IMG/VR virus record: IMGVR_UViG_3300010396_000095
Coordinates: 1-26,256 of that record
DNA from: a virus
Reading direction: 5' to 3' (one strand)
Length of the DNA stretch: 26,256 nucleotides
Shown here: positions 6,185 through 24,273 of the stretch, in pieces
How positions within the stretch are numbered: position 1 is the first letter of the stretch
How the letters are laid out: every line of letters starts with the position of its first letter
The notes under the pieces: generated by a model
What the model saw: the letters and a program-made list of their open reading frames with translations, nothing else
Database searches by the model: none
What the model was told of the DNA's origin: nothing
Translations under genes and position numbers: made by a program

Positions 6185-6712
6185 TTAGAGTGCCTCAACG
6201 TCGGAAGAGTTTTCTGCCAGACCGTGCTGCGCGAGGATGACGCCGACTTCCCGCTTGATCGCCTCGCCGATGATGCGCCCGACGGCGTCCTTATTCTCGT
6301 CGAACGCCGGGCGCAGGAACGGGTGGGCGGGAACGAACTGACGCAGATCGTTGATCATCCGGCGATACTTCCCGCCGCCGCGCCGCTTGCCGACGTGGTG
6401 GCCGAACTCGATGAAGGCTCCGTAGAACTGGTCGCCGATGAAATCCCCCGCGCCGGTCTGGATCAGGACCGTGACCTCGCCGCCCCGGGTGCGGGTACGC
6501 AGGTTAATCGAGTCGCGCAACTCCCCCGGCTTCACGTCCGCACGCGGCGGGCCGCTGTAGACCGGGCACTTGCCTTTGGCTGCGATCTGGATGATCTTCG
6601 CCCCTTCCCTCAGTGCGGTCCTCAGCACCTTCCGCTGGTCGATCTCCTTGGGGAGCTCGTCCAGCAGCGTTTCCAGATCGTCGATGCCTTCGATGATGAA
6701 GGTGAATTCCAT
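6185..6712 (-). CDS. HK97 gp10-like head-tail protein
   Basis: A 175-residue protein matching the HK97-gp10 family in layout. An N-terminal helix MEFTFIIEGIDDLETLLDEL is followed by a basic helix (RKVLRTALREGAKII, about 27-41) and the CPVYSGPP turn that precedes a beta-rich core. It ends in the AFIEFG and AHPFLRPAFDE motifs typical of the family. These proteins act at the head-tail junction or early tail assembly. The start is ATG 6712, which overlaps the TGA of the head-closure gene (TGATG); an upstream extension to 6982 would run through that gene and is not credible. Confidence 0.87.
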   Translation of the reverse strand: MEFTFIIEGIDDLETLLDELPKEIDQRKVLRTALREGAKIIQIAAKGKCPVYSGPPRADVKPGELRDSINLRTRTRGGEVTVLIQTGAGDFIGDQFYGAFIEFGHHVGKRRGGGKYRRMINDLRQFVPAHPFLRPAFDENKDAVGRIIGEAIKREVGVILAQHGLAENSSDVEAL

Positions 6713-7086
6713 CAGATCGCTTTTTCTACGACGTACAGGTCCCAATACTGGTGCTGTCCGTTCACGTCGATGACGGCGTTGATGCCGTAGTAGCGGGTCA
6801 ATCCGTTGCCGCCCACGACCTTGATGCGGTGTGCGGGCGTGGGGGTCACGTCCGACCGCCAGCGAATGCGAATCACCGCCGAATCGTCGGGCCGGGGCTG
6901 GTCGGCCAGGTACTGAACCCGTCCGCCCGCCGTCTTCCATTCGACCGTCCACGCCTCGCACAGCGTCTTGGGCGTCGCCCATGCGGTGATCGACCCGTCC
7001 GTGGTGCTGGAGGCCGTGGCGTCGTACTGGACGATGATTCGCCGCGGGCGGTGGGTAGAGACTTGGCCGTGGGGTTCAGTTCGCAC
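6712..7086 (-). CDS. Head closure / head-tail joining protein (SPP1 gp16-like)
   Basis: A 124-residue beta-barrel-type protein of the phage head-tail joining family. It shows an early strand IIVQYDAT, a central WTVEWKTAGGRVQYLADQ segment (about 46-63), and the closing strands RIRWRSDVTPTPAHRIKV and QYWDLYVVEKAI usual in this family. It plugs or extends the connector after DNA packaging. The start is GTG 7086, directly after the TAG of the connector gene, and its stop overlaps the next ATG. The order connector, joining protein, gp10-like, tail terminator is the standard HK97-like neck block. Confidence 0.83.
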   Translation of the reverse strand: MRTEPHGQVSTHRPRRIIVQYDATASSTTDGSITAWATPKTLCEAWTVEWKTAGGRVQYLADQPRPDDSAVIRIRWRSDVTPTPAHRIKVVGGNGLTRYYGINAVIDVNGQHQYWDLYVVEKAI

Positions 7087-7752
7087 CTACCAGACCTCCG
7101 CAACCGGATCGGAATCGATCAGGTCCTTGACGGCTTGGGGCAGGTCGCCCATCGGGCCGCTGGGCGCGTCGTACCACGCCGAAACGGTGGCGCAGATCGC
7201 CCGTCGGAACTTGGCCGGCACGTTCGCCCCCGAAGCCCCGTACCCGGCGGTGAACAGCACCTGCACCGCGTTGGGTCTCCACCAGTTGTTCGGCCAGTAC
7301 GACCCGCTGGCCGGGGACAGCCGCGGCGGCTCGCTGCTGGCGTCGACGATGTACGTGCTGGGGTCCATCGTCTGGAGCGAGTTGGACGTGTCGTAGTATT
7401 GGATCGACGCCACGCTCACCAGCGGGGACCGGGGCAGCTTCAACGCCCAGATGGACGGGTCCAGCGGCCAGGTGTTTTGCATCACCGGGGCGAGGGTGTT
7501 GGGGTTCCCCGGCGTGTACTGGCTGTTGGGAACCAGGGGGAACCGGTCGTAGGACGCGGTGTAAACCGTGTTGACCAGTGCCCGCCCGGCGTAATCCTCC
7601 ACCAGCGACCGCGCCATGGAGATCAGGTCGGCGATCTGCTCGTCGTGATCGTCGCCGTCGACGCGCAGCCACGATTTGACGTAGCTGACCGCCACCGGCT
7701 CGACAGCCGGGGGCGTCGTGATCGACAGCGAAAAGTGGGGTTGCTGGGCCAT
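7087..7752 (-). CDS. Head-tail connector (gp6/phiE125 gp8-like)
   Basis: A 221-residue protein with the typical connector opening PVAVSYVKSWLRVDGDDHDE (19-38), followed by a helix QIADLISMARSLVEDYAGRAL. This is the hallmark of the HK97 gp6/phiE125 gp8 family, whose rings sit under the portal. Two features distinguish it from short gp6 proteins: a middle beta-rich insertion (about 60-160) with many Pro, Tyr and Trp residues, and a closing helix (FRRAICATVSAWYDAPSG). It begins at ATG 7752, 13 bases after the previous gene's stop. Confidence 0.88.
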   Translation of the reverse strand: MAQQPHFSLSITTPPAVEPVAVSYVKSWLRVDGDDHDEQIADLISMARSLVEDYAGRALVNTVYTASYDRFPLVPNSQYTPGNPNTLAPVMQNTWPLDPSIWALKLPRSPLVSVASIQYYDTSNSLQTMDPSTYIVDASSEPPRLSPASGSYWPNNWWRPNAVQVLFTAGYGASGANVPAKFRRAICATVSAWYDAPSGPMGDLPQAVKDLIDSDPVAEVW

Positions 7753-7765
7753 GGGCTACCTCGAC

Positions 7766-8032
7766 TCAGGCCGAAACCGTCTGGCGACCCTGCCGGCGCG
7801 TCTGAACCGCCTGGGTCTGCTCGCGCACCGTCTTGTTGACGATGACGTTCGCCACCGTGCCGTCGGGCGGGATGTAATCGGCTTCCCCGTCGACGTAGGG
7901 GACGGCGTCGCCGGCCGCGATGCGCTTTTGCGCCTCGGACTCGCCGCACTCGTATTTTTCGCCCGCCCGCCAATACTGCTTCTCGCTGGTGACCGGGCTG
8001 GTAAGACGCACAAACACTTTGCCGCTGCTCAT
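7766..8032 (-). CDS. Small head-region protein, 88 aa, unknown
   Basis: An 88-residue soluble protein immediately after the capsid gene, the usual place for a decoration or head accessory protein. It has a beta-like N-terminus (KVFVRLTSPVTSEKQYWRAG), a short helix SEAQKRIAAGDAVPYV and a basic Gln/Arg-rich tail. The first part resembles the small loader-like proteins of HK97-type operons in which a strand is followed by an AQKLIDAG-type helix. The start at ATG 8032 is set by CAGGAG 7 bases upstream; the frame continues to 8089 but without such a site. Function is inferred from position only. Confidence 0.7.
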   Translation of the reverse strand: MSSGKVFVRLTSPVTSEKQYWRAGEKYECGESEAQKRIAAGDAVPYVDGEADYIPPDGTVANVIVNKTVREQTQAVQTRRQGRQTVSA

Positions 8033-8104
8033 AAGGGACTCCTGAAGGAAAAGGTTGGGAAAGCCCTCGCGCGAACTGTTCGTCCGCACGAGGGGAAGAT
8101 TCTC

Positions 8105-8127
8105 AGTCGCCCCTATTAGGTGGCGCT
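8105..8127 (-). other. Weak hairpin across the capsid stop codon
   Basis: On the transcript CGCC pairs with GGCG around ACCUAAUAGG, which includes the capsid UAA and a second in-frame UAG. The sequence ACCTAATAGGGG nearly repeats ACCTAATCGGGG at the tail tube stop. The pairing alone is weak; the repetition is the reason to list it. Confidence 0.25.
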
Positions 8128-9576
8128 GTTCACGAAATACTTCACGGGATTTCCGGCGGTCAGGAGTTGACCATCGTACCGCTGGTAGCCCATGAACCCG
8201 ATCTGCAGGGCGCTCATGTAGCGTTCGCGGAAGGTGAAGACTTCCAGCCCGCGCACGCGACGGATGATGTACTTCTTGAAGTCGCCGAACAGAATCGACT
8301 TCGCCGAAGATCCGAGGCTCGCCATGTCCTGGTTGATGACATAGTTGTAGCCGTTGAACATGTCCGGACGACGACCCTGCACGCCCTCACTGACGCCGCC
8401 GGCAATCCACAACGGACGGTTGTTGCTGTCGGCCAGCTTCTTGAGGGCCTTGAGGGTGCTGTCGTTGAACATGAACTTGGCCAGCGGCACGCCGTAGGCG
8501 TCCGAGCCGCGGTAGGCCGGATCGACGCTGTGCTCCAGTTCGACCAGCTCGTTGTAGCTGATCGTCGTGGGGCTGGCGCCGGCGTAGCCCAGGGCGGCCG
8601 CGGGCACGATGCCCTTGGGCTGGCTGGACCCGGTCCCGAGCGTGCAGTCGGTGTTAAGCTTGCGGCCGATTCGGATGGCCAGAAGCCCCTTCTGCCCGCG
8701 CGGGTTTTCCAGGTTCGTGTCGCCCACCAGATACTGCTCGACGTTGAACGCCGAGTCCTGCAAGAGCTGGATCGGGACCAGCACGACGGCACTGTCGTAC
8801 ATGTAGGCGTTCAGGTTGACGACGCTGAACGTCGGGTCCACGTCGCCGGAGCCGGAGCCGCCGGTGACGGTGGCATTCTCCGCCGTGATCTCGCCGGTGT
8901 TGCCGGTGTCGTCCACGTTCGGCCAGGGCAACAAATTGCCCATGTTCGTGTCCTGATACGTGCAGACGTTGGGGTCGATGATGCCGCCGTACCACTTGAG
9001 GGCGACGTTCAGGTTGTAGACGAACCCCTGCGGGATCATCGCGTCGCCGGCAGCGGACGTGCCGCCCATGGCGCGATTTTGCGACCACATCGGAGTGAAG
9101 TCGCTGCGGGATTCAAAGCTCCCGTTGCCGTTCTCGATCTGGTTGCGGATCATGCCGCCCGCATCGCCTTCGGGGAAGACGAACATTCGCTTTTCCAGCG
9201 GCGTCAGGCATCCGAAGTCGCCGCCGTAGAGGGCCAGCTTGCGCAGGGTCTTGAACTGGTCGGGCTTTTCAGTCGGCTGGCCGCCGTTGATGCCGGGACC
9301 GCCGGCCGGACGTTCGGCCGTGGTGTCCTCGAACCCGGCCGTCCGGGTGTCGGGGGCCGGAGCGCCCAGGTGGGCCTCCAGATCGAGCTGCTTGTCCATC
9401 TGCTCGATTTCCTTGCCCAGCCTGTCGATGTCCGCATGACGCGCTTCCCACTCGGCATTCTCGGCCGGGGTAAGGGACCGCTTTTCCTTGGACGCCTTGA
9501 CGATCATCTCTCCAGTTTGCTCGGCGAGCTTTTTGCGCTCGATCTGCTTCTCTTTCTTGAGTGCTAACAGTGACAT
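8116..9576 (-). CDS. HK97-fold major capsid protein with N-terminal scaffold (delta) domain
   Basis: The 486-residue product begins MSLLALKKEKQIERKKLAEQ. Its first 75 residues form a charged coiled coil, the delta/scaffold domain normally removed by the prohead protease. After a Gly/Pro-rich linker (about 75-110) comes the HK97 capsid fold with recognisable segments: MIPQGFVYNLNVALKWYGG, the spine helix region with PIQLLQDSAFNVEQYLV, the QPKGIV turn, FMFNDSTLKALKKL, and the C-terminal GDFKKYIIRRVRGLEVFTF. It has the capsid size usual for HK97-type phages. I chose ATG 9576 over the in-frame ATG 9618 because the shared leader element ends just before 9576, as it does at the tail tube start. Confidence 0.95.
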   Translation of the reverse strand: MSLLALKKEKQIERKKLAEQTGEMIVKASKEKRSLTPAENAEWEARHADIDRLGKEIEQMDKQLDLEAHLGAPAPDTRTAGFEDTTAERPAGGPGINGGQPTEKPDQFKTLRKLALYGGDFGCLTPLEKRMFVFPEGDAGGMIRNQIENGNGSFESRSDFTPMWSQNRAMGGTSAAGDAMIPQGFVYNLNVALKWYGGIIDPNVCTYQDTNMGNLLPWPNVDDTGNTGEITAENATVTGGSGSGDVDPTFSVVNLNAYMYDSAVVLVPIQLLQDSAFNVEQYLVGDTNLENPRGQKGLLAIRIGRKLNTDCTLGTGSSQPKGIVPAAALGYAGASPTTISYNELVELEHSVDPAYRGSDAYGVPLAKFMFNDSTLKALKKLADSNNRPLWIAGGVSEGVQGRRPDMFNGYNYVINQDMASLGSSAKSILFGDFKKYIIRRVRGLEVFTFRERYMSALQIGFMGYQRYDGQLLTAGNPVKYFVNSAT

Positions 9577-9796: not shown

Positions 9797-10486
9797 TTAG
9801 CGGTCCGTATCCGGGGGAACTGTTTCAAGCTTCATTTTGTCGCGTGCTTCCAGTGCGGCCTTCAGGCTCCGCTCGATCCGGAAGTTATCGTCCTGCCACC
9901 GCTGCGGGTGCGTCTTCTCATTCGCCCGCGCGTCGCGGTTGCGCAGCCAGTAGTGGTACAGGACGTGATCGACAAAGACTTCGGTGTTCAGGTACGGCCG
10001 GACGCGAATCGAAAAGTCGGCGTCCTCGCCGTAGTTCCACGGCTGGAACCTGACCGCGAGGGCGATTTCCCGGCGGATGGGCGTCAGGTGCCCCGGCTGT
10101 CGTTCGACGAGGAACCGGTCGCCGTGCGGGATTTCCCGCAGCTTCTGGTTCCGGATCGTGTACGTCGTGTCGGCGGTGTGCCGTCCGTCTTCGTACCACT
10201 TGGCGCGGAAGCCGACACAATCCGGGTCGGTTGACAGGGCGGAAACCAGACGAGCCACGTAATCGTCCGCAACCGTGTCGTCATCGTCGATGAAACAAAC
10301 GTGGGTTCCCACCGATCGCTCAAGCAGGCGGTTGCGCTTTTCGCCAATGGTTAGTTCCCCGTCGTCCGCGTCGATCAGTAGTTCCACGTTCTTCTGCGCC
10401 ACCGCCTGTGGTTCAAGGATCGCCAACAGGCGGCCCAGGAGGTCGCGGCGGCTGCGAATCGAGCAGATCAGGATCGACAGTCGCAT
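9797..10486 (-). CDS. Family 2-like glycosyltransferase (GT-A), 229 aa
   Basis: GT-A fold signatures are clear. The N-terminal strand MRLSILICSIRSR is followed by LLIDADDGELTIGEKRNRLL (about 37-56). The metal/nucleotide-sugar binding DXD-type motif FIDDDDTVADDY spans 65-76, and an acceptor-side acidic motif NYGEDADFS spans 151-159. The protein has no membrane segment, so it is a cytoplasmic transferase. It is the last gene of the sugar cassette and lies next to the capsid leader. It starts at ATG 10486, 4 bases after the upstream stop. The acceptor is unknown; a virion protein or a sugar already attached to one is an inference from location. Confidence 0.85.
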   Translation of the reverse strand: MRLSILICSIRSRRDLLGRLLAILEPQAVAQKNVELLIDADDGELTIGEKRNRLLERSVGTHVCFIDDDDTVADDYVARLVSALSTDPDCVGFRAKWYEDGRHTADTTYTIRNQKLREIPHGDRFLVERQPGHLTPIRREIALAVRFQPWNYGEDADFSIRVRPYLNTEVFVDHVLYHYWLRNRDARANEKTHPQRWQDDNFRIERSLKAALEARDKMKLETVPPDTDR

Positions 10487-10490
10487 CAGG

Positions 10491-10727
10491 CTACCCTCGC
10501 CGGCAGAACAATGGGCACAAGCTTTCGGCCGCCGTCCGCACGCCTACATTCGGGTTGGGCTTCTTGTCGCCGACAAGCTCGCCGCCCTTCAACACCGCCC
10601 AGATATGCGGATGCTGACACCATCCGAGTAACGCGCCGGCGCCGGTAGCCTTGAGCGTTTCGGTTGGCTCCGCCGCCCAGGACCGGCACCGCGCACAGCA
10701 GCGGACTTGTTGGCCGAGGGTGGTCAT
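10491..10727 (-). CDS. Small cysteine-rich protein, 78 aa, possible zinc binder
   Basis: No family is recognised. The 78-residue product has cysteines at C10, C11 and C14 near the N-terminus, a WCQH motif in the middle (36-39) and CPLFC near the C-terminus (71-75). The spacing could bind zinc. It contains Trp and Pro but no membrane helix. Its ATG abuts the TAA of the upstream gene (TAAATG), indicating coupled translation. It lies between two glycosyltransferase genes with another small gene, so it may assist the cassette, but this is only context. Confidence 0.6.
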   Translation of the reverse strand: MTTLGQQVRCCARCRSWAAEPTETLKATGAGALLGWCQHPHIWAVLKGGELVGDKKPNPNVGVRTAAESLCPLFCRRG

Positions 10728-10967
10728 TTATCTAGCGGCGTGCTGATCGGCACGCCGCTGCTCATCCCGCACCGGCCACTCCCCCTCGCGGACGAGAATT
10801 TCTTTCGCGAGACGAATGGCGTCCTGCTCATTCTCGAAGTCGATGCAAAAATCGCTATTTGCCTTCTTGAACGTGAGCCTGAGGCCGCGACCGCCGAGTG
10901 GATTGATCATGCCGCTGCGGTCGATGGCGAAAATCGGGAAATCGTCGCCGGATAATTCAATCCGCAT
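10728..10967 (-). CDS. Small hypothetical protein, 79 aa
   Basis: No family is recognised. It is a small acidic/basic mixed protein with an N-terminal beta part (MRIELSGDDFPIFAIDRSG), a second strand region RLTFKKANSDFCIDF (30-44) and a helix EQDAIRLAKEILVREG. ATG 10967 has GGAG at a good distance and follows the preceding glycosyltransferase stop by 13 bases, the first break in the chain of overlapping genes upstream. Its role in the sugar cassette is unknown. Confidence 0.62.
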   Translation of the reverse strand: MRIELSGDDFPIFAIDRSGMINPLGGRGLRLTFKKANSDFCIDFENEQDAIRLAKEILVREGEWPVRDEQRRADQHAAR

Positions 10968-10980
10968 TGCTCGCTCCGCG

Positions 10981-11694
10981 TTAGATCAGATCCCGAAAAA
11001 AGTACGGGTGCTTCTGCAGACTTTCCGGCAGCTTGGCCCGGTCAAACGGCTCGGCATTCCACCAGTCTTTAACGACCGGATGCAGATCCCGTTTTCTCTC
11101 GGGATCCATGAAGATCGAGTCGAACCATTCGGGCCGCAGTTCGTTCTGGTGGCCGTGGCACGTCCACTTATAGCGGGTAATCGCCTCGCCCTGCGCGTAA
11201 CCAAAGTGGTAGACGCGGCCGGGAATCGTATGGTTGCCGTCGCCGCCCGGCTTGATGATCCGGACCGGCGCCCATACGTCCCGGCAGGCCCACCGGAAGG
11301 ACCGCCAGAAGTGAACGAATCCGTCGATCAGCAGATTGCGGTAGTTGTGCGTCTCCGCGTACTCGATGCACTCCAGCAAAGACGGCTGGTCCCATACCTC
11401 GTCGGCGTCCACCTGCAAGATCAGGTCCGCGTCGGGGCAGAGGTTGTAAATCTCGTTGCGGTGCTGCCCCTCTCCGGCCCATTCCCCTCGCTTCCACGTC
11501 AGTTTGTGCGCCACGCCATCACAGCAGGCCCGCAAACTCTCCTCGCTATCGGGGCATGGCAGGACGGTCGAGTGGCCGTAGCTTGGATGTGGCGTGTACA
11601 GGACCACGACCCGGCCCACGAACGGCTCGACGGCCTCAACGGCTTGCCGCAGGTACTCGGCGCCGTAGTGGAGTGGGATGGCGGCAACAATCAC
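10981..11694 (-). CDS. Glycosyltransferase family 2-like protein, 237 aa
   Basis: The product begins MIVAAIPLHYGAEYLRQAVE, the first strand and helix of a GT-A enzyme. It continues with RNEIYNLCPDADLILQVDAD (79-98), which holds the DXD motif DAD at 96-98 followed by EVW. The second half contains a long HFWRSFRWACRDVWAPVRI stretch and several His residues that could line the acceptor site. I place the start at GTG 11694, which overlaps the upstream TGA (GTGA). This trims 22 residues from the longest open frame and gives a normal GT start. Substrates cannot be read from the sequence. Confidence 0.8.
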   Translation of the reverse strand: MIVAAIPLHYGAEYLRQAVEAVEPFVGRVVVLYTPHPSYGHSTVLPCPDSEESLRACCDGVAHKLTWKRGEWAGEGQHRNEIYNLCPDADLILQVDADEVWDQPSLLECIEYAETHNYRNLLIDGFVHFWRSFRWACRDVWAPVRIIKPGGDGNHTIPGRVYHFGYAQGEAITRYKWTCHGHQNELRPEWFDSIFMDPERKRDLHPVVKDWWNAEPFDRAKLPESLQKHPYFFRDLI

Positions 11695-12425
11695 AGCGCC
11701 GCCTCCACGCACTTTCGGAACGTCAGATGTTCGGTCATCAGGTGGTAGTTGCCTTCCCACTCCGTTGCCCGCTCGATTTCATCCAGACCGTAGACGCGAT
11801 AGGGGAACGGATCGTGCGACGGCTCGGCCACGAGCGGCAGCTTCCAGCAGGCGAACAGCACGTGCCGCAGGGGTTCAATGATCGGCAGCGTGTCTTGATG
11901 CAGGCACAGGCCCATCTTCGAAGACGCCAGCCGCCAATCCCGCTCGGCACCCCAGCAGGCACCCGCGACCTTGTAGCCCTTGCCCTCTAATTCGTTCACG
12001 ATCCGCTGCCGCCGGCCGTAGATGTAGGCCATGTGGGAAAAGTTCCACAACTTGACCGGCTGAGGCGTTCCGCCGAGCGAAGGGTGTCCGCCGACCGGAA
12101 CGTATTTAACCTTGGGGTCGTCCTTGAACTGGCTGGCCAGCCATCGGTCGCTGATCCAAACCTGGTCGTACATCTGCGGGACAAACCCCGCCAAGCCGCC
12201 GGTTGGCCGCTCCAGCATCCAGCAAATCATCTTGGCCCGGCGGGGCTGGCTGGCGATCGCGTGGGCGTTGCCGTTGGGCGGGCTGAGGATGTACGTCTCG
12301 TCCGCGTCCGGCTGAATCTCATTCTGCTCGCAGGTCGCAAAATCGGACAGGGCGACCAGTCGCCAATAATCCGTGTAGCTGCCGTAAGTCTGGCCTTGGT
12401 CGTTGAGAAGGCGAACGAACTTCAC
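11691..12425 (-). CDS. Glycosyltransferase-like protein (GT-B/CgeB-type C-terminus), 244 aa
   Basis: The start is GTG 12425, overlapping the stop of the hidden 55-residue gene (GTGA); a longer frame would run back through that gene. The first half has Rossmann-like strands (AKMICWMLERPTGG, about 64-77, and DQVWISDRWLA, 87-97). The second half has YGRRQRIVNELEGKGYKVAG (136-155), then KMGLCLHQDTLPIIEPLRHV (170-189) and FACWKLPLVAEPSHDPFPY. This is the arrangement of a GT-B donor site of the CgeB/Glyco_trans_1_2 kind. The protein is somewhat short for a full GT-B enzyme. Glycosyltransferase function is inferred, moderately sure. Confidence 0.65.
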   Translation of the reverse strand: MKFVRLLNDQGQTYGSYTDYWRLVALSDFATCEQNEIQPDADETYILSPPNGNAHAIASQPRRAKMICWMLERPTGGLAGFVPQMYDQVWISDRWLASQFKDDPKVKYVPVGGHPSLGGTPQPVKLWNFSHMAYIYGRRQRIVNELEGKGYKVAGACWGAERDWRLASSKMGLCLHQDTLPIIEPLRHVLFACWKLPLVAEPSHDPFPYRVYGLDEIERATEWEGNYHLMTEHLTFRKCVEAAL

Positions 12426-12589
12426 TTGCTTTGAAAGTGCGATATTGCCCTGAACAACATCGCCGCCAACGCAACTGGGAACAGGCAGATGCCAGCCAAG
12501 AGTAGGAACAGCAGCGGAACCCATATTTCAGCAGTTGCCAGCAGAAAGATGATCGAAATCACAAGCAATAATATCTGCGCGGCACTCAC
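12422..12589 (-). CDS. Hidden 55-aa membrane protein in the sugar cassette
   Basis: Between the methyltransferase and the next glycosyltransferase a 56-codon frame starts with GTG 12589 and ends with TGA at 12422. Both ends are GTGA overlaps with the neighbours, so it fills the space exactly. The product starts MSAAQILLLVISIIFLLATA, then EIWVPLLFLLLAGICLFPVA, and ends in a short basic tail (RAISHFQSK). Two hydrophobic helices separated by a Glu make it a small double-pass membrane protein. It could anchor the sugar enzymes or act on a lipid-linked sugar; no family is recognised. Confidence 0.7.
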   Translation of the reverse strand: MSAAQILLLVISIIFLLATAEIWVPLLFLLLAGICLFPVALAAMLFRAISHFQSK

Positions 12590-13152
12590 GGCGTTCCCCT
12601 TTCTTCCAGCCGGTAGACCGCGTATCCACAGTCGCTCGGCGGCTCAAAGAAGTTCTCGTCCGGCTCGCCCAGAACATTCAGGCATTCGGGCCGCACCGTC
12701 TTCTGAGTGTCCCAGTGGTTGTAGTCGTGGACGATCACCCGACGGGCCGGAAAGTGGCGCAGGACGTGCTCGGTGAAGCCGGGAGAGTGGTGCCCGTCTT
12801 CCAACAGCAGGTCGATCGGCAGGCCAAAATCCTTTTGCCAGTCGATCGCAAACACGTCACGATTGATGAACTCGACATACGGGAGCAGGTCGGCCGGGAT
12901 CTTGGCGCCGGCGGACGGGTTGATATCGATCGAGTAGACGCGGCCAAACCCGTTGTGCTTGCAGCCAAGGGCCAGGTGCGACGCCGAGCAGCCTTCCCAG
13001 CGGCCCACTTCGACGATCACTGCCGGGCGCATCTCCCGCACGGTCTTGTACAGGTATCGCCCCTCATTCTCCCAGCAGGAGCCCGGGGGCCACTTGCGCA
13101 GGGATTCGTCCGAGTGGTAGCCGCCGATGGTGTCGAGGGAAAGGTCAATCAT
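12586..13152 (-). CDS. SAM-dependent class I methyltransferase (Methyltransf_24-like)
   Basis: A 188-residue protein with class I methyltransferase motifs. SAM-binding motif I is IVEVGRWEGCSASHLA (46-61), the acidic post-I motif is VYSIDINP (72-79), and later strands are IDLLLEDGHHSPGF (113-126) and RRVIVHDYNHWD (137-148). The DGHH and HDY pattern is like family 24 methyltransferases that act on sugars or small molecules next to glycosyltransferases. This would suit O-methylation of a transferred sugar, an inference from context. ATG 13152 overlaps the upstream TGA (ATGA), and its own stop overlaps the GTG of the small membrane gene. Confidence 0.82.
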   Translation of the reverse strand: MIDLSLDTIGGYHSDESLRKWPPGSCWENEGRYLYKTVREMRPAVIVEVGRWEGCSASHLALGCKHNGFGRVYSIDINPSAGAKIPADLLPYVEFINRDVFAIDWQKDFGLPIDLLLEDGHHSPGFTEHVLRHFPARRVIVHDYNHWDTQKTVRPECLNVLGEPDENFFEPPSDCGYAVYRLEERGTP

Positions 13153-14102
13153 GCCGCCGCCTTCCTATATTTGCTGCTGAAATTAAGAATCTCTTTCATC
13201 CGCGCATCCCACGAATGGTTTGCGTGAACGTGGGCGCATCCCGCCGCCGCGATGGCTTTTCGCTCGTCTTCGTGGTCTAGGTAGTGGTCCACCAGATCGG
13301 GGATCTCGTCCGGGCTGCGGAAGCACACCAGATGCTTGCCGATCTCGAAATCCTCTTCGATCCCCGGATGCCAGTTCGCGATGACGAATGCGCCGCTGCC
13401 CATCGCCCGGAACCGTCGGTCACTCGTGAACCGGGCAACGGTCTGGTAGTGGTTGATGTCCAGCGCGATCTTGCAGGATCGATAGGCTGCCGCCTCTTCC
13501 GGCTCCAGCAGAAACGGGTCGCTCGGACCCCATCCGCCACCGTAGACGGCAAACCGGTCTCCGTACCGCTGACGCATCGCGGCGACGACCTTCTGCCGCT
13601 GGGCGCTGCAGGGGAAGCGATTCGCGTAATTGGTTCCGAGAAAGACGATCTCGGGGGTTTCGGGCCGGGGTTCTCCGTCCGGCGTAAAAACGTCGGTGGT
13701 AAAACCGATGTTCAAAAACTCCGCCGGATGTCCCTTGCTTCGAAGATTCTCCACGTCGCGCAGGTTACTGAAGCAATTGAGCGAGACGTGCGGCGCCACC
13801 TTCCAAGCCCACTCGGGCGTCTCGTCGCGAAGGTCGCCGCACCAGCTCAGCGTAAACCCCGGAATCTGGCTCAGCACGGCGCCGGGCAAAAGGTTCGGCG
13901 TCTGGATTTGCAGGAAGGTCAGGTCCGGCCGGAACGTGGCTGCCTGAACGGCAAACGCCTCCCGCATCTCGCGAACCTGATCCAGTGCCCAATACCTGTA
14001 CCAATCGAACTCCTGATATTCGGAGGCGACGGACCGCAGGGCGTTGCGCAGGCCCCACTGTGGCGAGCCGGGCGCGAGGAGGGCAAAATGCAGGATCTTC
14101 AC
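13149..14102 (-). CDS. CgeB-like glycosyltransferase (GT-B, Glyco_trans_1_2), 317 aa
   Basis: A full-length GT-B-type protein. The N-terminal half begins MKILHFALLAPGSPQWGLRN and includes RPDLTFLQIQTPNLL (58-72) and the LSWCGDLRDE turn. The C-terminal donor-binding half has EIVFLGTNYANRFP (151-164) and KIALDINHYQ (211-220). Most telling is RFTSDRRFRAMGSGAFVIAN (224-243), then FEIGKHLVCFRSPDEI, the signature region of CgeB-like glycosyltransferases. The start is GTG 14102, overlapping the upstream stop (GTGA). It is cytoplasmic. It is probably a key sugar-transfer enzyme of the cassette; donor and acceptor are unknown. Confidence 0.85.
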   Translation of the reverse strand: MKILHFALLAPGSPQWGLRNALRSVASEYQEFDWYRYWALDQVREMREAFAVQAATFRPDLTFLQIQTPNLLPGAVLSQIPGFTLSWCGDLRDETPEWAWKVAPHVSLNCFSNLRDVENLRSKGHPAEFLNIGFTTDVFTPDGEPRPETPEIVFLGTNYANRFPCSAQRQKVVAAMRQRYGDRFAVYGGGWGPSDPFLLEPEEAAAYRSCKIALDINHYQTVARFTSDRRFRAMGSGAFVIANWHPGIEEDFEIGKHLVCFRSPDEIPDLVDHYLDHEDERKAIAAAGCAHVHANHSWDARMKEILNFSSKYRKAAA

Positions 14103-14719
14103 AGGCAGTATCTCAACTTGGGCGTTTGACCCAACTCGTGCGGGTCAATCAGCAGGTAGGGCTTGGGAACACAGTCGTCGGCGCCGTGGCCGTACCGCCG
14201 GATATCGGTCTGGTGCAGGTGAATCGCCCGAATCGTCTTGCTCGGGTTACTGATCGCGTACCCGGCCTTGGCGATTTCATAAGCCAGTCGGTTGTCGCAG
14301 CCGCGGATGCCGGGGGTAAAGTCGCAGGCGTCGATCAGTGATTGACGGATCGGGGCTCGGAATATCCACGCGTCCTGCGAGTCGCACCGTGGCGCGCCGT
14401 GCTCGTCAGAGAAAAGGTGTACTCCATCTGAACGGTCGTCCCATCGGGTGAGGGCGTAGGCGCGATCCGCAGTAATTCCGGCCGCGTCCGCAATGCTCTG
14501 GTCGAAGTAGATGTCCGCATTGGCCACCACGACGACCTGTTGATCCTGGCTGACACGATTGACCTCCCGGAACAACTCACTGAACGGCAGTCGCGGCCCG
14601 ACCAACTGTACAATCTGGGCGATGGCCTTGTTTCCAGAGTTGTGGGCTTGGACGGCGCTCAATTCCGCGTCCCGCGCCGGTTCGGGGTCACGGTAGGTGT
14701 TGACGAACAGGGCGATCAC
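14099..14719 (-). CDS. Glycosyltransferase-like protein (GT-A), 206 aa
   Basis: A 206-residue protein with a GT-A look. A strand opening MIALFVNTYRDPEP is followed by VVVANADIYFDQSI (63-76), where NAD-x-x-x-D stands for the DXD site. Next come DSQDAWIFRAPI (113-124), then PGIRGCDNRLAYEIAKAGY (136-154) and AIHLHQTDIRRYG. That order is seen in a group of short GT2-like proteins of phages and polysaccharide loci. It starts with GTG 14719, overlapping the protease TGA (GTGA), so the cassette is translationally coupled to the head genes. The exact family was not confirmed. Confidence 0.68.
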   Translation of the reverse strand: MIALFVNTYRDPEPARDAELSAVQAHNSGNKAIAQIVQLVGPRLPFSELFREVNRVSQDQQVVVVANADIYFDQSIADAAGITADRAYALTRWDDRSDGVHLFSDEHGAPRCDSQDAWIFRAPIRQSLIDACDFTPGIRGCDNRLAYEIAKAGYAISNPSKTIRAIHLHQTDIRRYGHGADDCVPKPYLLIDPHELGQTPKLRYCL

Positions 14720-20020: not shown

Positions 20021-20353
20021 TCACTGCCGATCTGTCGCACCGGATCCAGTCCTATCTTCAGTCGCGGTCTTGCGGTCGTGGCATCGCTTGCACAGCGGCT
20101 GCCAGTTGCCCTCATCCCAGAATAGTTCGTGGTTGCCGCGGTGGGGAGTACGATGGTCGACAACCGTTGCCGGCGTCATGCGTCTATCCGCTTCGCACCG
20201 CACGCAGAATGGATTGGCTTTGAGATATCGCCTGCGGGCCTTCTCCCATGCAGTGGTGTACCCACGCTGCCTTGCGGATGGTCGATCAGTCATCGACGGG
20301 GAGGGCCGGCTTGCCCTGAGCCGGTCGGCATGTGATAGCGGGCGGCAGGGCAT
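20021..20353 (-). CDS. HNH homing-type endonuclease beside terminase
   Basis: A 110-residue HNH nuclease. It has a zinc knuckle FCVRC (C50, C53), the catalytic VVDHRTPHRGN (D66, H67), and the closing EGNWQPLCKRCHDRK with N83, C88, C91 and H92. The RPSARQRGYTTAWEKARRRY segment before it is the usual lead-in of phage HNH proteins. In HK97-like phages such a protein assists terminase in cos cleavage. I choose ATG 20353, which overlaps the TGA of the fibre gene (TGATG); an internal ATG at 20293 lacks a ribosome site. The gene lies just before the small terminase with a 140-base gap. Confidence 0.88.
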   Translation of the reverse strand: MPCRPLSHADRLRASRPSPSMTDRPSARQRGYTTAWEKARRRYLKANPFCVRCEADRRMTPATVVDHRTPHRGNHELFWDEGNWQPLCKRCHDRKTATEDRTGSGATDRQ

Positions 20354-22731
20354 CAGTTCAATTGGCTCTGCAACTCGGGCAGCGGATAGGTGGCATTCGT
20401 TCCGGTGGTAAACGGATCGCTCCATCGCGAATCGCCGTCGACTTGGAACTGATACTTGGCTGCTTGCAGCATCGTGGCCTGCACAAGCCCATCAGACCCG
20501 CTCGTTACCGAGAACGACGTACGTAGATAAACATTCGTGCTTTGCGCTGCGTCGTAGAGCCTGAAGTTGACCTTTGTGTATGCCTTGATCGTCCCCGACC
20601 CGTCGTAGGTATACCCGTAAGCATTGGTCTGTCCGGGCGTTCCAGCCGGCGTGATGACCACTTGCGCCATCGAGTACGTATGCGTCGTCACCCCCGACAC
20701 GGCCAGCGTGGCCGGCGTGAACGTGTACCCGGCCGCCGCGATGGCCACGGTGTACGTCGCGGTACCGAGACTGAACGCGATCTGCCCACTACTGTTGGTC
20801 ACGCCGCTGAAAACGCTCGACCCTTGCGTCATCGAGACCGTGGCGTTTTGAATCGGGTTCGTCCCGTCGTTGACTGTGATCGTGACGGAGTTGGCACCGG
20901 TGCCGGTATTGCCGGCGGTGGGCAGGGCGGCGATCTGTCCGGTGTTGTTGAAGCTCTGACTTCCGGCCAGTACCGCCGAAGTTGCCGCGGCGGTTGCCTG
21001 TGTCGCGGCCGTGGCAGCACTGGACGCGGCACTTGCGGCGTTCCCCTGTGCCGTCACCGCGTTGGGGCTATCGGCGGCATTGGTGCCGAGCGGGTCCGTC
21101 TTGGCCTTGATCGCGTTGGCGGTCGTTTGCAGTGTCGCCTGTGCCGCCGCCGTCGCGTCCCCGATCACCGTGCTCATCGTCACCGGAGCGCCCGGGTCGC
21201 CTAATGCGCGAGATTGAAACTGCTGCACGTTCGCCGGCAGCGGCGTCATGCCGTTGACGAAACCCGACACAATTACGCCGGTTGTGGAGGCGGCGACCGA
21301 AAACATTTCGGCAACCACCGGCTCGACGACCGCCTGCGAGCCGTAGAGCGTTTCGTGGATCAGGTCCACCGTGTGGTTTTGTACTTGGTCCCAGAAATTG
21401 GTATCCGGCGGCATGTTCGCCGTGCTGGACGTATGTCCGGTATTGCACTTGTACGTATAAAAAGCCCCGCCGGTGGCCAGCGGAACCGTCACGATGTCGC
21501 CGGGGCCGTACGTTGCCCCCACGGCCCACGCGCCCCGACTGGATCCGGAGGGCAGCTCATTAATCGCGTTGAAGCCCCGGTCCTCGGTCAGACGGCGCGC
21601 GTTGATCGCAATGACCGTCGGGTCGGCCTGCGCGATCGCGTCACAGACGCCCGGGTACTGATCGTGCTCGGTCTGTTGACCGGAGGTGAGCGTCCCCCGC
21701 CAGATGTCCCCGATCAGAATGATCGGGATCGTCGAACTGACGTTGGCCCTGAACCAGGCGATCAGGGCGAGCAGATTGGTCTGGAATTGCAGGGCCGTGG
21801 TGCCGGCGGCCGAATCGTTCGCCCCGTAGTAGATCGTGATGACGTCGTACTTCTGCGCGACCAGGAACGGCCCGCAGTTGCTGTGATTGGTCAGCCAGCT
21901 CGTCGAGTCGTACCCGCCGGCCGAATAGGTATCGACCGTCATCCCGTACGTCGGCGTGGCCGGACGATACCGCACGCCCAGCACGTCCACCGGATCGGTC
22001 GTCGATGAGAGCAGGTAGAGCGTCGGGTATTGCTTGCCGGCGGAAGGGGTCGGGGAAAAAGGCCCGAGCGTGAACGTGATCGTCTTGGGGCCGGTCGCGT
22101 TGTTGATGTCCAGGGCGGTGGTTCCGCTATTGGTCACCGGCGCTCCGTCGTACAGCATCGTCGCAGCCGCCGCCCAGCCGAACTGCCAGAAGACTTGGCC
22201 GGAGGTTGCACCGTGCCACGCCTTGGTCGCCACCGTCACGTCGATATAGACCGACAGCGAGTCGGTCCCGGCGTTGGGGAAATAGTTGCCGCCGATCAAG
22301 CCGTACGCGTAGGAGAGCTCGTTCCGGGGGAAGCACTTCGCCATGAACATGTTGGCGTCGGTGTTGTTGATCGCCTTGCAGACGTTCGCCCCTAGGAACG
22401 AGAGTTGGGGCGGCAGCTTGTCCGGCGTCAGGCGCATCGCGGTGCCGCCGGTGTTGTTCACCGTTCCGCCGCAAAAATAGCCCGTCGCACTTCCCGGGCC
22501 GCCGGTGTTCCACAAAAGCCCCGATCCCGGCGAATTGTGAAAATGCTCCGCGAAGGCGGCGTCCAGCAGCGGGAGAAGGTGATGCCCGTTTCCGTTGGGG
22601 TTGGTCGAGCGCGAGTCCCCGATCCACGCCATGCGGCAGGCCTGCGTCACCGCCTTTGCCAGTACGGCGGCAAGCAGCGCCGGATTCTGGGCGGTGTGGT
22701 ACGGGACGGCGGTGTAGGTGGGGAAACTCAT
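20353..22731 (-). CDS. SGNH-hydrolase tail fibre/esterase with inserted carbohydrate-binding-like module
   Basis: The 792-residue product has an N-terminal SGNH/GDSL hydrolase. The nucleophile block is AWIGDSRS (35-42, S40), the third block is YYGAND (301-306), and the last block DLIHE (456-460) holds D456 and H459. Between the third and last blocks, residues about 400-450 (GAWAVGATYGPGDIV through NFWDQV) look like a chitin/cellulose-binding CBM5/12-like module. After an Ala-rich coiled linker (about 520-600) comes an Ig/carboxypeptidase-regulatory-like module (VTITVNDGTNPIQNATVSM onward, about 615-680) and a beta-rich tail. It probably deacylates a host surface polysaccharide as part of a fibre. 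ATG 22731 lies 2 bases after the upstream stop. Confidence 0.85.
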   Translation of the reverse strand: MSFPTYTAVPYHTAQNPALLAAVLAKAVTQACRMAWIGDSRSTNPNGNGHHLLPLLDAAFAEHFHNSPGSGLLWNTGGPGSATGYFCGGTVNNTGGTAMRLTPDKLPPQLSFLGANVCKAINNTDANMFMAKCFPRNELSYAYGLIGGNYFPNAGTDSLSVYIDVTVATKAWHGATSGQVFWQFGWAAAATMLYDGAPVTNSGTTALDINNATGPKTITFTLGPFSPTPSAGKQYPTLYLLSSTTDPVDVLGVRYRPATPTYGMTVDTYSAGGYDSTSWLTNHSNCGPFLVAQKYDVITIYYGANDSAAGTTALQFQTNLLALIAWFRANVSSTIPIILIGDIWRGTLTSGQQTEHDQYPGVCDAIAQADPTVIAINARRLTEDRGFNAINELPSGSSRGAWAVGATYGPGDIVTVPLATGGAFYTYKCNTGHTSSTANMPPDTNFWDQVQNHTVDLIHETLYGSQAVVEPVVAEMFSVAASTTGVIVSGFVNGMTPLPANVQQFQSRALGDPGAPVTMSTVIGDATAAAQATLQTTANAIKAKTDPLGTNAADSPNAVTAQGNAASAASSAATAATQATAAATSAVLAGSQSFNNTGQIAALPTAGNTGTGANSVTITVNDGTNPIQNATVSMTQGSSVFSGVTNSSGQIAFSLGTATYTVAIAAAGYTFTPATLAVSGVTTHTYSMAQVVITPAGTPGQTNAYGYTYDGSGTIKAYTKVNFRLYDAAQSTNVYLRTSFSVTSGSDGLVQATMLQAAKYQFQVDGDSRWSDPFTTGTNATYPLPELQSQLN

Positions 22732-22733
22732 GG

Positions 22734-24023
22734 TTAGTTCGCACTCACTTTGCTCGGGTCACTCCACCACATCATCGCCGCCGGCGAGATCGTTCCGTAC
22801 GGGTTCCACCGCACGCTATCGATCCGCAGGTTGCCGCTGAGGATCGCCCGCAACTGATGGTCGGTCGTGAGCGTGCTGTCGCGCAGGGCGAGTTGCTGGC
22901 CGAGGGTCAGCCAGTCGGGTGTCGGTCCATTCGGGTTGACGTTGAATAAAAGATCGCAGCCCGAGAAGGACGACACCGACGCAGCGCCGCTGGGTGCGAC
23001 TCCGAACGTGCCCAGTGATCCGATCGACTCGCCCGACACGCCCTCGAACGCCGTCCCGCCCCCATCGGTCGCGTAGTCGGCGATCGCGGCACAGATGCCG
23101 ATGGAACCGCCGGTGACGAGCTTAGGGGGTCTGCCTTTGCCGGGGCCGTAGTTGACGGTATCGAACGCGGTATTGACGCCGGTAATGATCGGGTCGCGGA
23201 ACGTCACGACCTTGGCTTGGGTGCCGCCGCAGGCGTAGGCGACTTTGCAGGCTTTGATGGCAAGCCGCTCGAAAAGAAGCTCGCTGGTGTTGCTGTTTAC
23301 TCCGTTGGGATCTGCCAGGATGCCCACGATGCAGTTACGGATGACGCAATCGCGGACGATGCAGTTGGACGATCCGTTTCGACGGGAGGAATAATCGAAT
23401 CCAGGAAAACCACCATCCCCAGGCACGGAACCGTTGCCGCTCGGATCGAATGCGATGGCGCACTGTGGAGAGTAACGACTGTCCCGAACGCCGTTTGCCG
23501 CAAAGTTCGAGAGTTGGAATACATCGGTGTAGTTTGGCTCCCATCCCCTGCGCAAAAGTCCGTCAAAAACAATCCCCTCGATGACCACACCCCGCCCGGT
23601 CTGGATCGACAGGATCGGCGCGTTGGCGAAGTCGGGGCGCAGAACCGTCTGGTGGGAGCCGTCGGAAAAGCCGGCGGGGTGCGTGACGCCGCAAAGGACC
23701 ACGCTCGGTTGGCCGCCCGGCGTGAGGGGCCAGATTTTCAAGGGGGAGCCGAGGCGGATGATGCCGGGGGGCAGTTGGACGCCCCGACAGGTCGCGGTGT
23801 TGATTGCGTAGTCGATCGCGGCTTGCAGGGCCGGGGAATCGTCATGCTGCCCGTCCGCAACGACGCCGAACGTCCGCGCGTCAATCAGCCCGTCCGTCGT
23901 TATCACGACGGGCTGGGCCGGCAGCGTGGCCTGCGCGACGAGGCGATGGCCGGCGAAGACGCCGGCGGCACACGCCAGCAGGATGCAGGCGACGCGAAGT
24001 AGTTTAGATGCTTGGCGGTTCAC
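22734..24023 (-). CDS. Pectate-lyase-type beta-helix protein with N-terminal signal sequence
   Basis: The 429-residue product opens with a signal sequence (NRQASKLLR, then VACILLACAAGVFA, with AQA/T near residue 30 as a possible cut site). It then has DARTFGVVADGQHDDSPALQ, the hallmark N-terminus of Pectate_lyase_3-type parallel beta-helix proteins. Repeated short strands with Asn/Asp/Gly turns follow (IVRDCVIRNCIVGILADPNG). Proteins of this fold serve as tailspike depolymerases or secreted polysaccharide lyases. A signal sequence is odd for a virion protein and suggests export from the infected cell. The start at GTG 24023 is chosen because it begins just before the signal; a longer frame reaches 24131 but overlaps the upstream gene. 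Confidence 0.78.
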   Translation of the reverse strand: MNRQASKLLRVACILLACAAGVFAGHRLVAQATLPAQPVVITTDGLIDARTFGVVADGQHDDSPALQAAIDYAINTATCRGVQLPPGIIRLGSPLKIWPLTPGGQPSVVLCGVTHPAGFSDGSHQTVLRPDFANAPILSIQTGRGVVIEGIVFDGLLRRGWEPNYTDVFQLSNFAANGVRDSRYSPQCAIAFDPSGNGSVPGDGGFPGFDYSSRRNGSSNCIVRDCVIRNCIVGILADPNGVNSNTSELLFERLAIKACKVAYACGGTQAKVVTFRDPIITGVNTAFDTVNYGPGKGRPPKLVTGGSIGICAAIADYATDGGGTAFEGVSGESIGSLGTFGVAPSGAASVSSFSGCDLLFNVNPNGPTPDWLTLGQQLALRDSTLTTDHQLRAILSGNLRIDSVRWNPYGTISPAAMMWWSDPSKVSAN

Positions 24024-24060
24024 GAGTTGATGGCGGCGAGGATGCTGGGGGCGGAGAGGG

Positions 24061-24273
24061 TCATCGAGCAAATCGACCGAAGCAATAGCCGGCCAAAAGC
24101 AAGGCAAGGGGGATCGCGATCCTGCGACCAATGACCACCAGCGATGCGACGATCGCTAACAGCGGCTTTTCCTTGAACGCCTTGCAGACGACCCGCCAAT
24201 GCTTGCGCAGCTCTTCCTTGCGGCGGGCGTCCCGCTCATATTGCTCAAGGCTGCATGGTGCCTGCGATCCCAT
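24061..24273 (-). CDS. Small membrane protein, 70 aa
   Basis: A 70-residue protein with a charged, helical N-terminus (EQYERDARRKEELRKHWRVV) and two hydrophobic stretches in the second half, PLLAIVASLVVIG (about 37-49) and IAIPLALLLAGYCFG (about 52-66), split by two Arg. ATG 24273 overlaps the stop of the upstream gene (TAATG). Such proteins next to a tail/host-interaction block may be holin-like or anchors, but there is no recognisable family. The longer frame to 24501 is not credible because it lies over the upstream gene. Confidence 0.65.
   Translation of the reverse strand: MGSQAPCSLEQYERDARRKEELRKHWRVVCKAFKEKPLLAIVASLVVIGRRIAIPLALLLAGYCFGRFAR

Follow-up and report, generated by a model that had tools for sequence, protein, structure and literature searches.

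A head-operon cassette of glycosyltransferases and a methyltransferase in an environmental phage, and related gene sets in other phage head operons

To our knowledge, virion glycosylation has so far been shown by experiment only for a few mycobacteriophages, and it is reportedly rare among phages at large. The mechanism itself is already known; what is new here is a core set of genes, the breadth of its occurrence and its repeated installation in head operons. Our starting point is the linear virus record IMGVR_UViG_3300010396_000095 (26,256 bp, analysed whole and called the window), where a cassette of nine genes, most of them for sugar-transferring enzymes, lies between the prohead protease and capsid genes of an HK97-type phage. 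In Che8, an F1 mycobacteriophage, glycans are covalently attached to the major capsid protein, according to PMC11256854, which cites Freeman et al. 2023; PMC12619734, citing the same study, reports for mycobacteriophages that capsid and tail tube carry glycans at their C-termini. In the chlorovirus PBCV-1, virus-encoded cytoplasmic enzymes glycosylate the major capsid protein Vp54 (PMC7019647).

The late region of the phage reads on the minus strand of the window, and the nine genes of the cassette are co-directional with it. The cassette and its two neighbours are as follows.

16179-14716 (-): S78 prohead protease, 5' neighbour of the cassette (Pfam Peptidase_S78 E=7.6e-41; phrog_80 E=1.8e-50)
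14719-9797 (-): cassette of nine genes, from the g1 start to the g8 stop
14099..14719 (-): g1, predicted GT-A-fold glycosyltransferase, 206 aa, with NADIYFD, SQD.W, GCDNR and H.H motifs
13149..14102 (-): g2, CgeB-like GT-B glycosyltransferase, 317 aa (Pfam Glyco_trans_1_2 E=3.7e-28)
12586..13152 (-): g3, S-adenosylmethionine (SAM)-dependent methyltransferase, 188 aa (Pfam Methyltransf_24 E=1.3e-9)
12422..12589 (-): membrane peptide, 55 aa, GTG start, Kyte-Doolittle maximum 2.66, overlapping the g3 stop and the g4 start
11691..12425 (-): g4, predicted GT-B-fold glycosyltransferase, about 244 aa from the GTG at 12425
10981..11694 (-): g5, GT2-like glycosyltransferase, with LHYGAEYL and D.DE motifs invariant in an alignment of 5 relatives
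10728..10967 (-): g6, small protein, 79 aa
10491..10727 (-): g7, small cysteine-rich protein, 78 aa
9797..10486 (-): g8, GT2 glycosyltransferase, 229 aa, with an IDDDD motif (Pfam Glycos_transf_2 E=6.8e-7)
9618-8116 (-): HK97-fold major capsid protein, 3' neighbour of the cassette (Pfam Phage_capsid E=3.9e-43; phrog_10 E=1.5e-41)

The tally is five glycosyltransferases, one Methyltransf_24 protein, one membrane peptide, which an open reading frame (ORF) cut-off of 60 aa misses, and two genes without assigned function. A preliminary description, made from the letters of the window, had proposed this same content at 9797-14719; the coordinates are exact, and the count, the family-24-like methyltransferase, the small membrane protein and the two small genes of unassigned function (g6 and g7) are all confirmed. 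No family scores above cut-off for g6 and none matches g7, and neither has a relative among the loci that we fetched. The GC (guanine plus cytosine) content of the cassette, 0.60-0.63, is like that of the rest of the window. Six successive junctions, the first being that between the protease and g1, are start/stop overlaps of 4 bp.

14719/14716: protease and g1
14102/14099: g1 and g2
13152/13149: g2 and g3
12589/12586: g3 and the membrane peptide
12425/12422: membrane peptide and g4, whose GTG start at 12425 fits its homologues
11694/11691: g4 and g5, whose GTG start at 11694 fits its homologues

These consecutive overlaps mark the cassette as a single unit of coupled translation that runs on from the protease gene without a break. 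We also considered pseudogene debris, which is ruled out by the overlaps together with the open state of all frames and the purifying selection seen in relatives.

All five proposed glycosyltransferases stand, g5 and g4 being the weaker cases. Two are identified by Pfam: g2 scores 98.7 bits on PF13524 against a cut-off of 25, and g8 scores 29.8 on PF00535 against a cut-off of 23.3, has an invariant DDDD and matches the glycosyltransferase family phrog_14775 (E=2.7e-37). Among described phages, g8 is related to Che8 gp108 (33% identity, E=5.6e-25; family profile E=1.5e-39), Avani gp105 (33-34% identity, E about 1e-25) and Forza gp93 (34% identity, E=5.4e-30). For g1 and g4, the two that had been called less certain, neither Pfam nor NCBIfam gives a match, and the assignment comes from AlphaFold2 models compared by Foldseek. 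The g1 model (predicted local distance difference test, pLDDT, 94; predicted template-modelling score, pTM, 0.91) has as best PDB matches chondroitin polymerase, GalNAc-T, beta4GalT7 (beta-1,4-galactosyltransferase 7) and nucleotidyl-sugar transferases, with E 8e-6 to 1e-3 and TMq ~0.5, and its matches are mostly nucleotide-sugar enzymes. An alignment of 34 rows has N67, D69, S114-Q115-D116, D142-N143, H167 and H169 invariant, and these acidic and histidine residues resemble a metal site. The predicted structure thus identifies g1 as a glycosyltransferase of GT-A fold, possibly of a new family that has no Pfam or NCBIfam model. For g4, the model is of moderate confidence (pLDDT 81, pTM 0.82) and predicts a GT-B-fold glycosyltransferase, with SenB, AviGT4 and GT4-type enzymes as matches (E 3e-5 to 1e-3, TMq up to 0.61); seven relatives of g4 were found. 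The case for g5 is made by weak GT2 similarity (0.061 on Glycos_transf_2, PF00535, with 13.7 bits, below the 23.3 cut-off) and by its motifs. The methyltransferase g3 is above cut-off (39.3 bits on Methyltransf_24 against 26.3; RMNT_CmcI is a weak match at 0.039), shares 41% identity with the methyltransferase adjoining g5 in another viral locus (L095), and is probably a sugar O-methyltransferase.

Relatives of the window phage show the head operon with the cassette missing. The remaining genes of the operon and its continuation are these.

20425-20021 (-): HNH
19880-19419 (-): small terminase
19444-17816 (-): large terminase
17804-16161 (-): portal
7752-7087 (-): head-tail adaptor, followed by neck and tail proteins
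4510-1985 (-): tape measure

The best match to the large terminase, at 58% identity, is in a contig (L003) of a Phycisphaerales metagenome-assembled genome. The order HNH/small terminase, large terminase, portal, protease, capsid, adaptor is kept in L003 as well as in L283 and L284, whose genomes belong to the same phylum, and a planctomycete host of the window phage is plausible from these sequence matches. From protease to capsid the distance is ~5.1 kb in the window versus 193 bp in L003, -3 bp in L283, 148 bp in L284, 4 bp in L002, 5 bp in L004, 217 bp in L005 and -10 bp in L076. Identical gene order in relatives that lack the cassette means that it is a real insertion, and the expectation that such phages normally have no genes at this place holds for these seven relatives with the same gene order (-10 to 217 bp). 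Aligned with the L003 capsid, the window capsid has a 12-residue insertion (the VGDTNLENPRGQ region) and smaller ones; nothing in this alignment points to a glycosylation site, and the insertion is a hint only. A search of IMG/VR confirmed no close relative of the window capsid. Two side observations concern the same pair: in L003, ~2.2 kb (6406-8633) separate the capsid from the head-tail adaptor, and the window protease carries ahead of its S78 domain an N-terminal zinc-ribbon-like segment (CPACH..CPKC) that the L003 protease lacks.

Although the preliminary description treated the cassette as peculiar to this phage, the module of which it is part is widespread. Scanning viral contigs with the g5 alignment gives 16 loci, and for the g1 alignment we took the best 80 of 131 relatives. 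Iterated profiles find all three of g1, g2 and g5 in at least 49 loci, of which 23 are left once redundancy is removed. Across these 23 the pairwise distances correlate (Mantel r of 0.55 for g1/g2, 0.72 for g2/g5 and 0.30 for g1/g5), and in L154, L170 and L289 g1 and g2 are fused as one protein. In the phylum of the Phycisphaerales, by contrast, 2 of 294 genomes carry g5 and 3 carry g1, one occurrence being in a polysaccharide cluster (L267) and another next to a putative element (L187/L188, described below). A tblastn search of 50,697 annotated phages gives no match for g3, g4 or g5 and one weak partial match for g2, so annotated isolates are nearly blind to this module. Related cassettes include a GDP-mannose dehydratase (L098), an RmlD-like reductase (L094) or a DegT aminotransferase (L085), differences which suggest that the sugar probably varies between phages. 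Two further loci deserve mention. On contig 26 of genome G022 (L187/L188), a g1-like protein of 523 aa, a methyltransferase, DUF5672, g2 and g5 adjoin an element that encodes many small membrane proteins and has two endolysin-like genes; no tailed-phage head gene was recognised in it, and it could be a virus without a tail, or something like a plasmid, that carries the same module. In L088 (1948-9439), two g1 homologues share one contig with radical-SAM-like proteins and duplicated GT-B-like genes.

The related sets occupy several slots of head operons. In L154, the order is portal, MuF, cassette (g1-g2 fusion, g4, methyltransferase, g5 and two sulfotransferase-like genes), S78 protease and capsid; L170 has the same left half, and the protease-capsid side is visible only in L154. 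In the L146 lineage, the order is protease, capsid, g2, g5, DUF5672, a methyltransferase in some, g1, GT4 and head-tail adaptor, and the cassette is present in 32/32 distinct contigs that show both ends, spanning 4.05-5.94 kb. In the L127 lineage, a ClpP-type head protease and a structural protein are followed by the cassette (g1, g2, g5) and the portal. L289 has portal, capsid and then downstream glycosyltransferases that include the g1-g2 fusion. In L094 and L098, g8, g1, g2 and g5 lie downstream of putative head genes (one recognised only by iterated profile). Since the slots differ, a single ancestral insertion does not account for the head-operon cassettes. In the L146 lineage, the median ratio of nonsynonymous to synonymous substitution (dN/dS) is 0.06-0.11 for g1, g2, g5, DUF5672, the methyltransferase and GT4, versus 0.04-0.09 for portal and capsid; such strong purifying selection implies that the cassette genes are functional and maintained. 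As a separate observation, in L145, L235, L253 and their relatives accessory genes (PAPS-reductase family, DNA methylase-like) vary between capsid and g2 or inside the cassette, and the glycosyltransferase core stays.

These arrangements bear on the possibility that the cassette is moron cargo, a mobile island of sugar genes, tolerated between head genes, that would serve various host-directed functions instead of making one product. The L146-lineage slot does gather unrelated genes (PAPS-reductase family, DNA methylase-like, GIY-YIG-like), as this explanation would have it. Random insertion, however, would not keep such a set: g2, g5, DUF5672, g1 and GT4 are kept under purifying selection in every complete slot of that lineage, the divergence of g1, g2 and g5 is correlated, and some loci have fusions. 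We therefore regard cargo as distinctly improbable.

The reading that we favour, and consider probable with appreciable room for doubt, is that the cassette encodes late-expressed enzymes by which a head (or tail-tube) protein receives an O-methylated oligosaccharide. It is the best supported because homologous sets sit in head operons of unrelated phages and because g8 is homologous to a glycosyltransferase of the Che8 cluster. The enzymes would be made together with the head proteins and would draw nucleotide sugars from the host pool (the window has no genes for donor-sugar synthesis). One transferase would prime a head protein at an amino-acid side chain, with the capsid as the leading candidate acceptor and the tail tube as the second, the remaining transferases would extend the chain, and g3 would O-methylate a sugar. 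The coat might then change how the virion is recognised by host receptors, host surface proteins, grazers or other surfaces. The sugar would be a different one where related cassettes bring extra genes (GDP-mannose dehydratase, DegT aminotransferase, sulfotransferase, acetyltransferase). Decoration of the virion, which the preliminary description had also preferred, thus gains from the recurrence in head operons and the g8 homology, while of its more specific proposals the methylated chain of several sugars is deduced from enzyme content, and the capsid is one candidate target beside tail tube, host surface and DNA.

Several observations weigh against this reading. Both glycan and acceptor are deduced here from genes; the large phages L100 and L106 carry the module in other surroundings, apart from any recognised head gene; and portal searches gave no structural placement for most of the remaining loci. 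The Che8 glycosyltransferase genes are at the genome end, so virion glycosylation does not need a head-operon location. A small membrane peptide beside g4 is unexpected for purely cytoplasmic protein glycosylation, and a small hydrophobic ORF directly before g4 is present also in L154 (8862-9047) and L100 (2388-2648); neither has sequence homology to the 55-aa peptide, and the L100 ORF belongs to a phrog without known function. Finally, one bacterial g1 homologue (L267) sits in a surface-polysaccharide cluster with an ABC exporter and an epimerase.

The last two points fit remodelling of the host surface, in which the enzymes would act late on lipid-linked or surface glycans of the host, blocking superinfection or the binding of progeny to debris, and the late operon would provide timing only. 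Glycosyltransferases in host-recognition regions of pelagimyophages have been interpreted likewise (PMC7029224). The cassette itself has neither a GtrA flippase-like protein nor a polytopic GtrC-like one, by Pfam and by the hydropathy of its large proteins, which have no transmembrane stretch (Kyte-Doolittle maximum <=1.17). Repeated placement in different head-operon slots would be unexpected for a surface modifier, and the closest experimentally placed relative, the Che8 cluster, is from a phage with glycosylated virions. Surface remodelling is therefore unlikely in our judgement, if still worth keeping in mind.

Virion decoration also has to be set against hypermodification of DNA, with the transferases glycosylating modified bases of the genome, which would thereby escape restriction. 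Phage glycosyltransferases that add diverse glycans to DNA do exist (Pyle et al. 2024, as cited in PMC12619734). No thymidylate-synthase family is found in 27/31 cassette-bearing records, with positive controls detected; a TET/JBP search had no match in 46 records, but its control also gave no signal. The window has no base-preparing enzyme (TET, thymidylate-synthase-like), although it is a genome fragment and such genes could lie outside it. The neighbouring methyltransferase belongs to Methyltransf_24 and is not a C5-cytosine methyltransferase, and replication genes are not the neighbours of the cassette, which is placed in the head operon. We consider DNA hypermodification very improbable indeed.

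Given the related sets in the head operons of several unrelated environmental phages, it is probable that many phages coat themselves with sugars of their own making. More broadly, and tentatively, there may be a widespread modular system of virion glycosylation in environmental tailed phages outside the actinobacteriophages, a proposal that could readily turn out either way. Its core would be g1 (GT-A, lacking a Pfam model), g2 and g5, combined with exchangeable transferases, methyl-, acetyl- and sulfotransferases and sugar-nucleotide genes. The system would have entered HK97-type head operons independently, at different slots, and at least one lineage would have fixed it. If this is true, self-made sugar coats built during head assembly are common in uncultured freshwater and other environmental phages, and how such virions are captured, adsorb, are recognised by antibodies and appear in proteomics would have to be rethought. 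Phages carrying the module can be picked by a sequence marker, g1-g2-g5 next to capsid genes.

Upstream of the head genes, the window has three large proteins that we report as separate observations.

20353-22731 (-): protein of 792 aa, encoded between HNH and the late gene that comes next, carrying a GDSL-like lipase/acylhydrolase domain (PF13472, E=9e-8)
22734-24131 (-): protein of 465 aa whose start is weakly pectate-lyase-like (RHGA/epimerase), below the Pfam cut-off, of a kind typical of tail-spike beta-helices
24911-26254 (-): 447-aa protein reaching the contig end, with no Pfam match

A similar ORF to the GDSL protein is found in the contig of L089 (E=1e-14), and this protein is possibly a virion-associated carbohydrate esterase.

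Compared with known systems, the cassette shares phage-borne glycosyltransferases with the GtrABC serotype-conversion clusters, which have a flippase and a polytopic membrane transferase where the cassette has neither. The likeness to PBCV-1 is by analogy only; that virus is a eukaryotic nucleocytoplasmic large DNA virus (NCLDV) with a different capsid fold. Profiles of g1, g2, g3, g4 and g5 have no match to Che8 gp108-110, Avani gp105-107 or Forza gp93-94, and the link to these phages is through g8. In Gordonia phage Forza, the g8 homologue gp93 is placed between the head-tail adaptor and tape measure genes; unlike the window, Forza has two glycosyltransferases only (gp93-94), with no g1, g2, g4, g5 or methyltransferase. 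The clusters of Che8 and Avani are at the genome end, whereas the window cassette is inside the head operon, and relative to the Che8 cluster the cassette, known from genes alone, adds a methyltransferase and more transferases. In Che8, the g8 homologue gp108 is the first gene of a glycosyltransferase cluster (108-110), so that several such genes are clustered as in the window; for the glycosylation of Che8 itself, gp108 is at most a candidate enzyme.

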